A stretch of 42,715 nucleotides of DNA from Candidatus Peribacteria bacterium. GTDB lineage: Bacteria > Patescibacteriota > Gracilibacteria > UBA1369 > LOWO2-01-FULL-3. The stretch is from positions 1 to 42,715 of the forward strand of contig CALREX010000007.1 in NCBI GenBank assembly GCA_943356465.1, given 5' to 3'. Numbering within the stretch: the stretch's first letter is position 1; each line of letters begins with the position of its first letter. A program made the translations under genes and the position numbers. Positions 38,211 to 42,579 of this stretch are shown here, in pieces. Under the pieces are notes generated by a model, which ran no database searches, was not told where the DNA came from, and worked only from the letters and a program-made list of their open reading frames with translations.

Positions 38211-38245
38211 AAAGTGTCGTTGGGTAACCAATGACACTTTTTTTT
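38211..38245 (+). terminator. Strong rho-independent terminator after fusA
   Basis: AAAGTGTCGTTGG (38211-38223), GTAA tetraloop, CCAATGACACTTT (38228-38240): 13 pairs with one G-U and a GNRA-type loop, followed by T's to 38245. Confidence 0.95.
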
Positions 38246-38303
38246 GTTGACCTACAGAAAAACCAAGTCCATAATTACAACCAACCTTTTAACAATATAC
38301 CAT

Positions 38304-38687
38304 ATGGAAACAGACGCAAAAGGTCCACTCCCAAAAAATCAGGAATCTCCAAAACTCAAACTGCCAAAAACCCCTGAAACAATTAACAAATTACGTGACA
38401 AATTAACATGTTACAGGGACATTCTATCAACAGATAAAGCACTTCACGAAATAGGCATGGGCAAAAAATTAAGCCCTTTCTTAGCACCAGAACAAGCATT
38501 TCAAGTATTTCCAAATATTAATAACAATCATTATATCGTTTATATATTGGAAAAATTGCTTGCAGAAGGAGTAGTTGATACACAGGCATGCTCGAGAGAT
38601 CTAGCTGCAAAAGACTATGGATCGTTTGACGCACAAGCTTTTAATCATGCTTGTGCAGAAATTGATGCATTAATAGCGGAAACATAA
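38304..38687 (+). CDS. Hypothetical helical protein between fusA and tuf
   Basis: A 127-residue protein from ATG 38304 (an upstream start at 38244 would add 20 residues but overlaps the terminator). Not recognised. After a polar N-terminus with several prolines, the sequence is predicted to be mostly helical (TINKLRDKLTCYRDILSTDKALHEIGMG; NHYIVYILEKLLAEGVVD), with three cysteines. No membrane segment. It lies after the fusA terminator and has no clear promoter, so its expression mode is unclear. Confidence 0.6.
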   Translation: METDAKGPLPKNQESPKLKLPKTPETINKLRDKLTCYRDILSTDKALHEIGMGKKLSPFLAPEQAFQVFPNINNNHYIVYILEKLLAEGVVDTQACSRDLAAKDYGSFDAQAFNHACAEIDALIAET

Positions 38688-40122: not shown

Positions 40123-40605
40123 TTAAACACTAAAACTCATACTATCATCATCACTTTTACCTCCACCTTCAGGTACAGATGGCGGCGGAACCAAAGCAGA
40201 AGCCTTATCATTAACACCTTTAGATATAGATCCTGGAGTTATCGCTGGCAAAGCCGGTCTAGTCAATCTCGTAAGTTCACCACCGGGTTGCTGAGACACA
40301 GAAATAGGCTTTTCTTCAAAAACATCAGTGGAAACTTCCAAATCAAAAACACCATTTTTTGGTTGCGTAATCCTAAATCCCTCCGCGGAACAAAGGACAG
40401 AAAACAAAACATCATGTCCTTCAACATGAACGACATGATCATTCAATCCCTCTATTCTCAAAAATTGTCCGCTCTCACCATTAATCGAAGAAAATTTTAA
40501 ATTTTCAAAATTAACCTCTATAGGGGCAGTTTTAAAAATTCTTGAAATAAAAGACTTAAAACGTGAAACTAATACACTTTTTGCAGCATCAATCCTTCTA
40601 CACAA
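40123..40605 (-). CDS. 3' piece of a UGA-interrupted ORF, hypothetical
   Basis: A 160-residue reading frame that could begin at TTG 40605, but is in the same frame as, and separated only by a single UGA codon and 12 sense codons from, the ORF at 40642-40869. The content is not recognised: a basic helical start (RRIDAAKSVLVSRFKSFISRIF), a strand-rich domain (ENLKFSSINGESGQFLRIEGL; VVHVEGHDVLFSVLCSAEGFRIT) and a Pro/Ser/Gly-rich tail. No ATG lies near the proposed start, which argues that this is the C-terminal part of a longer protein. It converges on the tuf terminator. Confidence 0.5.
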   Translation of the reverse strand: MCRRIDAAKSVLVSRFKSFISRIFKTAPIEVNFENLKFSSINGESGQFLRIEGLNDHVVHVEGHDVLFSVLCSAEGFRITQPKNGVFDLEVSTDVFEEKPISVSQQPGGELTRLTRPALPAITPGSISKGVNDKASALVPPPSVPEGGGKSDDDSMSFSV

Positions 40606-40641: not shown

Positions 40642-40869
40642 TCATCTATCACCAAGATCAAGTCTTGGAGGAGGTATCGGAGTCCCCCTTTGAGTACTAT
40701 ATTCATGTGCAGCCTCAACAGGAAAACCGGCACTCGACGGCATACTTAAACGCCCGGGCTGCTCTTCTCCATTGGACACATCGGCATCAATAGCACCTGG
40801 AGCAGTAGGATGCGCTAAATCTTCACCACCGGTTCTTCCGGTAGGACTTTCTTCATCTCCAGGCTTCAT
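40642..40869 (-). CDS. 5' piece of the UGA-interrupted ORF, hypothetical
   Basis: The 75-residue product (MKPGDEESPTGRTGG...) starts at ATG 40869, five codons inside the longest frame (40884). Here an AGAGGT Shine-Dalgarno-like sequence stands seven bases ahead, a rarity in this window. It is Pro/Gly/Glu-rich and probably disordered, ending IPPPRLDLGDR then TGA (40644-40642). The same frame stays open after the TGA for 172 more codons. Read through, the protein would be about 248 residues: disordered N-terminus, folded middle, disordered C-terminus. Nonsense mutation, recoding or a sequence error are all possible. Confidence 0.5.
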   Translation of the reverse strand: MKPGDEESPTGRTGGEDLAHPTAPGAIDADVSNGEEQPGRLSMPSSAGFPVEAAHEYSTQRGTPIPPPRLDLGDR

Positions 40870-40964
40870 AAGATTACCTCTCATAACATAAGCTTAATAA
40901 ATACCATAGGGTATTATACCACAAAATAGCAAAAAGGTAAAGACGCTGAAAATCAATATTTTTC

Positions 40965-40993
40965 TTGACTTAAGCCTTTAATACATATATAAA
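40965..40993 (+). promoter_or_regulatory. rpsJ promoter
   Basis: TTGACT (40965-40970), 17 bases, TATAAA (40988-40993), with the same TTCTTGACT context as the rpoB promoter. The predicted transcript starts near 41000 with a leader of about 125 bases. Confidence 0.8.
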
Positions 40994-41007
40994 TCCACTA
41001 CAAAATT

Positions 41008-41104
41008 GATTTCCTGTTTTTAGGAAATCGCTCGCAATGCGGGACAGCTCAAATTCATGTTAAGGATCAAACCTTTGACCGAGCTGTACAATCTCGGTTT
41101 TTTT
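41008..41104 (+). promoter_or_regulatory. rpsJ leader with terminator/antiterminator switch
   Basis: Hairpin 1: GATTTCCT/AGGAAATC (41008-41015, 41022-41029). Antiterminator candidate: ACAGCTC (41044-41050) with GAGCTGT (41081-41087). Terminator: CCGAG (41079-41083), nine-base loop, CTCGG (41093-41097), then seven T's (41098-41104). The last two pairings share bases 41081-41083 and exclude each other. An eight-codon frame MRDSSNSC (41037-41063) covers the antiterminator's first arm. Confidence 0.7.
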
Positions 41105-41126: not shown

Positions 41127-41450
41127 ATGGCAACAAAGCAAAAAATCAGAATCAAAATCAAATCATTCGACCATAGAGTAATAGATGAAACAACAAAACT
41201 TATCATCGACACAGCTGAAAGAACAGGAGCAATGATTGCAGGTCCGATTCCGTTGCCAACAAAAATCGAAAAATTCACAGTAAACAAATCAACATTCGTT
41301 CACAAAAACGCACGTGAACAATTCGAAATCAGAACTCACTCACGCCTTATCGACATCCGCGAAACAACACCAAAAACAATCGAATCTCTTTCCAGCCTAA
41401 ACCTTCCGGCTGGAGTACAGATTGAAATAAAAATGTTATCAGAAGAATAA
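41127..41450 (+). CDS. rpsJ: 30S ribosomal protein S10
   Basis: A 107-residue S10 (NusE). Family landmarks are [70 protein letters not shown] and the C-terminal [12 protein letters not shown]. Besides its ribosomal role, S10 acts in transcription antitermination with NusB. It is followed by a convergent membrane protein gene, so rplC and the rest of the usual S10 operon do not follow. Its own promoter and an attenuator-like leader precede it. Confidence 0.97.
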
Positions 41451-41466: not shown

Positions 41467-42579
41467 TTACTCTTCACTTTTTGGGACATCGGCCTTATCA
41501 GCTTTCTCATTTTTCGGAGCATCAACTTTAGCTCCGTTTTTCGCCATTTTAAACATTGTCGCAGTAAAAGCTGTATCCAATACCGCAATAGATGCAGGGC
41601 TTAAATCCATTTTAAAAGTACCATTCATCAAGGCATTCGTACCAAAATAGTTCAAAGCCAATGATTCAACAAAAAGCAATGGACGATCCATTTTTCCAAG
41701 TTTTTTATCAATATCTTTCGATCCCTCATCTCCATATTTTTTATGAAGCATTTCCGCACCCTTAAGCGCCAAAGCCGCAACAAGTGAAACAGTAAGACCA
41801 CCAATCACAATACTTGTAAGAATATTATTGTGTCCCCATTTTGCAGTTCTAGCCTGCTCCCATTTTGCCGGACCTGAAATAGCTGCATCAACAGAAACAG
41901 ACCAAACCGCAGCAATATATTTCAAAAAAGACGCATCCAGAGAACCTATCACATCCACATCTTCGCCCTCGCCTTCTTCATCCCCTTTAATTTCACCATA
42001 CAAAAACTTCGCCAAGATAGCAAAACCAGCGGCAGAAAGCCCTCTTTGGGCAATTTCACCGTAACCGATTTTTTCACCACCTGTTTCAGCACCGGCAGTG
42101 GCCGCACCAGAAAGTACAGGCAAAAGAATATGACTCGCCCCTACTCCAAATATCCATGCTGACTTCGCCCTCGAAGATCCAAATTTTCTATACATCGCAA
42201 GCGTAGCAACGGCTACATCTACAGCAATTCCAAGCCCCATCATTACAGAAACACCATAAAAATAAGCATCACGGGTTTCAGCACTATCTTCAGGAATAAC
42301 CACACCAGATTTTTCAACAACTTTCACGTCCTCAGGAGTCAAAGCCGGAGTTTTACTTTTCATGGAATCTTCCAGAGAATCTCCAGATGGCTTATCTGCA
42401 GTATAAGCAGGCAAAAGAGTACCCATAGCCGCAAGTCCGACACCTTTACCAAGCCAACCCAAAAATTTGCGCCTTGAATTATCAACAGCACCTTTAATCA
42501 TATCACCGCCTTCAGTAGCTTTTTCAATACCTATGCTACCCTCCACTACACCCTTTTTTACTCCATCTAAATCTCCCAT
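41467..42579 (-). CDS. Multi-pass membrane protein with twin-arginine motif, function unknown
   Basis: A 370-residue protein I cannot assign. Residues 35-41 read SRRKFLG, a good Tat motif, followed by a hydrophobic stretch to about 58 and a possible cleavage region near AYTADK. The motif comes after an unusually long 34-residue N-region. Further hydrophobic segments lie near 107-130, 141-162, 180-195, 219-238 and 251-272, with weaker ones near 300-318 and 325-345. Two segments repeat a VD-x-A pattern (GLGIAVDVAVATLAM and VWSVSVDAAISGPAK), suggesting an internal duplication as in LysE/MntP-like transporters; this is a loose resemblance only. The C-terminus is Lys/Glu-rich. It is convergent with rpsJ. 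Confidence 0.65.
   Translation of the reverse strand: MGDLDGVKKGVVEGSIGIEKATEGGDMIKGAVDNSRRKFLGWLGKGVGLAAMGTLLPAYTADKPSGDSLEDSMKSKTPALTPEDVKVVEKSGVVIPEDSAETRDAYFYGVSVMMGLGIAVDVAVATLAMYRKFGSSRAKSAWIFGVGASHILLPVLSGAATAGAETGGEKIGYGEIAQRGLSAAGFAILAKFLYGEIKGDEEGEGEDVDVIGSLDASFLKYIAAVWSVSVDAAISGPAKWEQARTAKWGHNNILTSIVIGGLTVSLVAALALKGAEMLHKKYGDEGSKDIDKKLGKMDRPLLFVESLALNYFGTNALMNGTFKMDLSPASIAVLDTAFTATMFKMAKNGAKVDAPKNEKADKADVPKSEE

Follow-up and report, generated by a model that had tools for sequence, protein, structure and literature searches.

We have analysed the region upstream of rpsJ in the window, by which is meant the whole 42,715 nt stretch of DNA, belonging to a host genome of 1.08 Mb that is 98% complete. 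The encoded ribosomal protein S10 has its nearest named relatives in MAGs labelled Candidatus Peregrinibacteria, Peribacteria or Gracilibacteria. As the initial annotation had indicated, rpsJ stands alone, the gene downstream being on the opposite strand and opposite-strand ORFs flanking it on both sides in the window's ORF list; tuf is located ∼1.1 kb upstream, again with opposite-strand ORFs in between. Four ORFs near tuf and rpsJ (40123-40605, 40642-40884, 38244-38687 and 41467-42579) have no Pfam match. Shine-Dalgarno sequences are essentially absent at the start sites of 33 window genes, and AT-rich stretches, often with TTAAC, are observed upstream of many window start codons. The features of the rpsJ leader, all on the forward strand, are as follows.

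40965..40993, +, rpsJ promoter, TTGACT and TATAAA separated by 17 nt (by sequence and by matches before other leaders)
41000..41007, +, conserved 5' end of the leader, ACAAAATT (alignments of 20 and 43 leaders)
41008..41029, +, P1 hairpin, arms GATTTCCT (41008-41015) and AGGAAATC (41022-41029), loop GTTTTT, the proposed ligand-recognition element (two-sided changes)
41031..41043, +, P2 hairpin, arms CTCGC (41031-41035) and GCGGG (41039-41043), loop AAT, which is variable elsewhere (two-sided changes)
41037..41063, +, eight-codon frame MRDSSNSC, from ATG at 41037 to TAA, not conserved and considered not to belong to the switch
41044..41050, +, 5' arm of P3, the putative antiterminator, ACAGCTC, directly abutting P2 with no spare base
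41081..41087, +, 3' arm of P3, GAGCTGT, of which 41081-41083 is common to P4
41077..41099, +, P4, the putative terminator hairpin, GACCGAG/CTCGGTT (covariation, own-versus-swapped pairing and sequence)
41098..41104, +, U-tract of the terminator, seven T (by sequence and by U-runs in other leaders)
41127..41450, +, rpsJ, ribosomal protein S10 (uS10/NusE), 107 aa (NCBIfam PRK00596 / TIGR01049 equivalog; Pfam PF00338)

From the position of the promoter the rpsJ transcript is expected to start near 41000, and all parts from P1 to the U-tract fit within the first 105 bases of this expected transcript. The terminator CCGAG/CTCGG with its seven T's, and its overlap with the alternative stem ACAGCTC/GAGCTGT, had been recognised in the initial annotation with correct sequence and coordinates; the P1 and P2 hairpins, which precede the switch, are additional to that description. 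The core of P4 pairs CCGAG at 41079-41083 with CTCGG at 41093-41097 and extends to seven pairs through A41078-T41098 and G41077-T41099. P3 and P4 cannot coexist, because GAG at 41081-41083 is common to both stems. P4 was missing from the output of a generic terminator scan, its loop being longer than the scan permits. The leader folds better than 200 of 200 shuffles (z −3.5), and a U-tract terminator with an overlapping antiterminator arises in 6 of 2000 dinucleotide shuffles, a switch at least as long as that of the window arising in 2 of 2000.

Occurrence of the leader was investigated at increasing phylogenetic distance. rpsJ was found in 27 of the 30 genomes of the window's family, and 20 of these 27 loci were aligned, L005, L008, L010, L019, L023, L024 and L026 being excluded as they have no full leader. 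A covariance model of P1-P2-P4 built from the 20 family leaders (R1) matches 34 of the 89 genomes of the order at one place each, and all 34 matches are upstream of rpsJ in the same direction. Fourteen matches lie outside the training set, all before rpsJ, four in the window's own family and ten in five others (f1, f2, f3, f10, f12 and f13 together). Overall, 43 of the 79 rpsJ upstream loci of the order give a leader at E up to 0.01 (alignment A3), spanning seven families (f1, f2, f3, f6, f10, f12 and f13). A second model trained on these 43 leaders (R2) was searched in 353 genomes of the class, in which matches at E 2e-4 or better were observed in 44 genomes, each belonging to the window's order and each with its match at rpsJ; the training set accounts for 43 of these, and one, G008, is new. 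In addition, an R2 match in G082 (f15, E 0.001) immediately precedes an rpsJ fragment and appears to be a genuine leader that has degenerated. None of the 14 other weak R2 matches (E about 0.002-0.01) is at rpsJ where that gene could be located, and the six that were inspected are terminators or coding sequence. Of ten inspected genomes of other orders with weak R2 matches, rpsJ was located in eight, in none adjoining the match, and no rpsJ was found in G218 or G219. Across 379 genomes of the phylum, the search recovered no more than 12 genomes of the order together with two weak matches, in G493, where rpsJ is on another contig, and in G450, where no rpsJ was found. The leader is also present, at E up to 6e-5, in 28 of 80 named rpsJ loci; the MAGs concerned are almost all labelled Peregrinibacteria, Peribacteria or Gracilibacteria, with L134, L140 and L154 labelled otherwise. 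L140 (JAACEU010000024.1), labelled Nitrospirae bacterium, contains a Peregrinibacteria-type rpsJ together with the leader, and this MAG is likely mislabelled or contaminated.

Presence of the leader corresponds with the transcriptional setting of rpsJ. In 31 loci the tuf stop codon lies within 112 nt of rpsJ, and a leader is found in none of them; in the remaining loci it is found in 43 of 48. The five of these 48 without a leader (L010, L024, L060, L088 and L102) contain degenerate remains as judged by eye, and the genome carrying L024 is G008, which R2 recovered. In 39 of 41 cases the leader is immediately preceded by a promoter with at least 9 of 12 matches, as opposed to 6 of 121 control stretches, a count from which L107 and L080 were excluded as having too little upstream sequence; the leaders without a promoter of their own are L019 and L063. 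Since its own promoter is present, and since it is absent where rpsJ follows tuf, the leader belongs to an independently transcribed rpsJ. Leader-like elements lacking a clear promoter of their own are observed between tuf and rpsJ in L019, L024 and L063, as though they function within a transcript of tuf and rpsJ. Of the 31 leader-bearing loci that could be assessed, 8 have rplC as the next gene after rpsJ and 23 do not (motif within 450 nt), counts which exclude L005, L010 and L024, having no leader, and L124, where the contig ends. Thus, L3/L4 is not a constant partner of the leader. In three loci (L006, L007 and L011, of G003, G004 and G029) an extra small gene lies between leader and rpsJ, both of which are retained, making the leader the head of a two-gene unit; the products inserted in L006 and L007, from the same genus, appear similar by eye.

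The initial annotation had proposed covariation analysis of rpsJ leaders in related genomes, and this analysis indicates that P3 and P4 are both conserved and covary. RNAalifold, given a plain MAFFT alignment of the 20 family leaders, returns P1, P2 and P3 unaided, with two-sided changes in 12 of 19 pairs. In the same alignment, P1-P2-P3 and P1-P2-P4 each beat 500 of 500 shuffles in both paired cells and two-sided changes; the number of further pair types is not above that of shuffles, 81 and 228 of 500, respectively, reaching the observed count. Across the 43 leaders two-sided changes affect 8/8 pairs of P1, 4/5 of P2, 5/5 of P4 and 4/7 of P3, the model used to align these rows having contained P1, P2 and P4 but not P3, and 93.9% of P2 cells are paired. 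The P3 and P4 strands change in step, as in CAGCTC/GAGCTG, CATCTC/GAGATG, AATCACG/CGTGATT with P4 ACCGTGAT/GTCACGGT, and CCCGG/CCGGG. When arms were swapped between genomes in 40 leaders, leaving out L008, L023 and L026, which have no P4, own P3 arms formed 6.4 consecutive pairs versus 4.7 for swapped arms and own P4 arms 7.0 versus 6.0, in both cases equalled by 0 of 10000 permutations, a statistic which ignores kinship. An equally large gap is observed among the 19 leaders from other families (6.6 versus 4.7 for P3 and 7.8 versus 6.0 for P4).

Individual leaders vary in the completeness of the switch. Of the 43 leaders, 36 have a P3 with at least five pairs that overlaps P4, and 39 have a P4 with at least five pairs, some of the latter, in truncated leaders, being spurious. 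The 8 nt following P4 contain at least five U's in 34 of the 43 leaders and at least six in 25; the U-tract is weak or missing in the other nine (e.g. GGTAATTTAAC), three of which are truncated. By sequence, an expression platform of exclusive P3/P4 stems and a U-tract is therefore present in most leaders, and conservation and covariation of both exclusive pairings support the proposal of an attenuator-type switch. On this comparative evidence the leader is a real, conserved RNA family that has no match in Rfam and is new both as a family and in its lineage.

The two states are predicted to differ little in energy, with a median difference of 0.8 kcal/mol favouring P4 in the 35 of 43 leaders in which both stems have at least five pairs, a set that includes L023, whose leader is truncated and whose P4 is spurious. 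P3 is predicted to be the more stable in 15 of these 35, and by about 3 kcal/mol in the window. As P3 and P4 are close in energy and P3 is favoured in only 15 of 35, the energies do not set the direction or default state of the switch; the closeness would fit a switch decided during transcription.

In three family members (L008, L023 and L026) P1-P2 and the start of P3 are kept and P4 is gone, the end of P2 being located about 25-30 nt upstream of the start codon. By eye, the degenerate loci L060 and L088 have likewise lost the terminator, with P1-P2 remaining. Attenuation is consequently unusable in some lineages, as the terminator is gone. Protein bound to the truncated leaders L008, L023 and L026 could block translation directly, and it is possible that these three, together with L060 and L088, represent an attenuator converted into a translational operator.

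The loop of P1 has the form GNUUUU in 33 of 43 leaders while the P1 stem is freely replaced, a pattern that a protein-recognition site would be expected to show. S10 is the sole product common to all leader units, from which we infer it as the sensor, and it is the likeliest candidate also because, at most loci bearing the leader, rplC is not the next gene after rpsJ. In the proposed mechanism, P1 and P2 would fold in the nascent RNA and form a binding site for free S10. When S10 is absent, the strand following P2 would pair with the middle strand as P3, blocking the terminator and allowing polymerase to read into rpsJ. When S10 exceeds its rRNA sites, it would bind P1-P2 and destabilise P3, releasing the middle strand to pair downstream as P4, which with the U-tract would end transcription before rpsJ. 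Because P3 abuts P2 without a spare base, a ligand on P1-P2 could plausibly compete with P3. We infer that the ligand is S10, that its binding favours P4, giving feedback repression, and that termination occurs in the cell. The separate parts of this reading differ in strength. The leader is almost certainly a regulated switch, its mode of action in the window's lineage is very likely transcription attenuation, and S10 is likely the direct sensor; the complete proposal, an autoregulatory transcription attenuator sensing free S10 through P1-P2, appears reasonably probable. A more specific version, in which S10/NusE would directly read the P1 loop UGNUUUUA and P2 without NusB or boxA, deciding termination of its own mRNA, and in which loci that have lost the terminator would reuse the sensor half for purely translational control, is tentative and, taken as a whole, doubtful.

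The leader belongs to a known kind of element, the ribosomal-protein leaders, although no Rfam family (release 15) matches it. The L20 leader of B. subtilis is a ribosomal-protein leader with transcription attenuation, and in leaders of the L20 type a protein-binding element lies upstream of exclusive antiterminator and terminator hairpins, as in the layout proposed for the rpsJ leader. The sensors in known attenuation systems are mostly primary rRNA binders whose leaders mimic rRNA, mimicry being frequent and not obligatory. The rpsJ leader differs from those of primary binders in lacking 16S sequence mimicry, and S10 is late-assembling, as indicated for yeast uS10 (PMC10695388), which stabilises the contact between helices 39 and 41. 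Sequence mimicry of 16S rRNA, with helix 41 suspected first, was rejected in local alignments with the genome's own 16S, which are no better than those of shuffles (171/500 and 500/500 of which reach the same level).

Other RNAs of rpsJ 5' UTRs have been described. The S10 r-leader of Firmicutes, obtained by comparative genomics (PMC7247131, where it is credited to previous studies), and the rpsJ motif of Peptostreptococcaceae (PMC11109978) are structured RNAs in the rpsJ 5' UTR; the Firmicutes S10 r-leader and rpsJ motif RLC-47-1 resemble the present leader as candidates for S10 self-control in this position and differ from it in lineage. In the S10 operon of E. coli attenuation likewise takes place in a leader of the rpsJ transcript, ahead of the first gene, and is controlled by L4 (PMC10931766); there the sensor is encoded in its own operon, whereas here rpsJ is usually apart from rplC, and R2 finds nothing up to E 10 in the rpsJ region of E. 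coli K-12. The same review describes suhB of E. coli, in which NusB-S10 boxA control allows S10 to regulate an mRNA through binding to the 5' UTR; in contrast, the rpsJ leader lacks a boxA. No Patescibacteria ribosomal-protein leader, and no rpsJ leader beyond the Firmicutes and L4-controlled E. coli types, was found in Rfam or in the literature searched, which covered few subscription papers.

A boxA/NusB-S10 element in the leader was rejected, as the best matches to the rrn boxA of the window's genome lie for the most part in the U-tract or shortly ahead of the start codon; the best match averages 7.79/11 versus at most 7.47 in 40 shuffles, and the window's leader scores 8. In the window's genome (L029, own contig C6) a good boxA, GTTCTTTAACA, is observed upstream of the single 16S gene found, and NusB-S10 antitermination is probably used there.

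Two alternatives accept that the leader regulates rpsJ. The switch may be real and its sensor something other than free S10, such as a small molecule, L4 or a different ribosomal protein, or a complex of S10 with NusB or NusG on the polymerase. S10 is identical to NusE, an antitermination factor (PMC10931766), and rplC still follows rpsJ in eight assessable loci, which would suit such a sensor; the element nevertheless follows rpsJ and not rplC in the other 23, has no boxA and has no counterpart in the E. coli rpsJ region, and we regard a different sensor as unlikely. The leader could also be mainly translational, P4 or a protein bound to P1-P2 blocking ribosome entry and the U-tract being secondary. 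Retention of P1-P2 near the start codon after loss of the terminator in L008, L023 and L026 fits this idea, as does the presence in several leaders of AATTTAAC instead of a U-run after P4. However, the seven T's of the window and the U-runs after P4 in most leaders argue for termination, and the window's genes have no Shine-Dalgarno sequence to sequester, so that a mainly translational leader is distinctly improbable.

The two remaining explanations carry very little weight. The initial annotation had offered translation of MRDSSNSC as an alternative sensor, that is, leader-peptide attenuation, and the eight-codon frame does exist and covers the P3 arm. Yet an ATG frame of at least five codons over that arm is present in only 11 of 43 leaders, with differing positions and lengths, the ATG of the window sits in the variable P2 loop and no run of one regulatory codon is present; the unconserved frame was thus not borne out as a sensor and can hardly drive the switch. 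Short stems are cheap and a five-pair terminator alone is ordinary, which speaks for a terminator near the promoter that acts constitutively, is overlapped by a stem only by accident and regulates nothing. The rarity of such a switch among shuffles (6/2000) and the covariation of P3 and P4 across seven families make an accident scarcely credible. An attenuator sensing free S10 is the reading retained, in which the leader is able to end transcription early, most likely to confine S10 synthesis to times of need.

If this reading is right, streamlined, mostly uncultured bacteria retain feedback control of ribosome parts, and the leader provides a compact system in which to ask if S10 can regulate its own mRNA. 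The loci would form a natural series in which the same sensor occurs with a terminator, without one, or is lost when rpsJ joins the tuf transcript. If S10 reads its own leader directly, an RNA switch would set the pool of a ribosome part that doubles as a transcription factor.

In the course of the rpsJ searches, in-frame TGA codons were observed in rpsJ of L197, L198 and L199 (G177, G117 and G132), which belong to other families of the class, and none in the rpsJ matches of the window's order; their presence is in keeping with TGA being read as a residue in those genomes.
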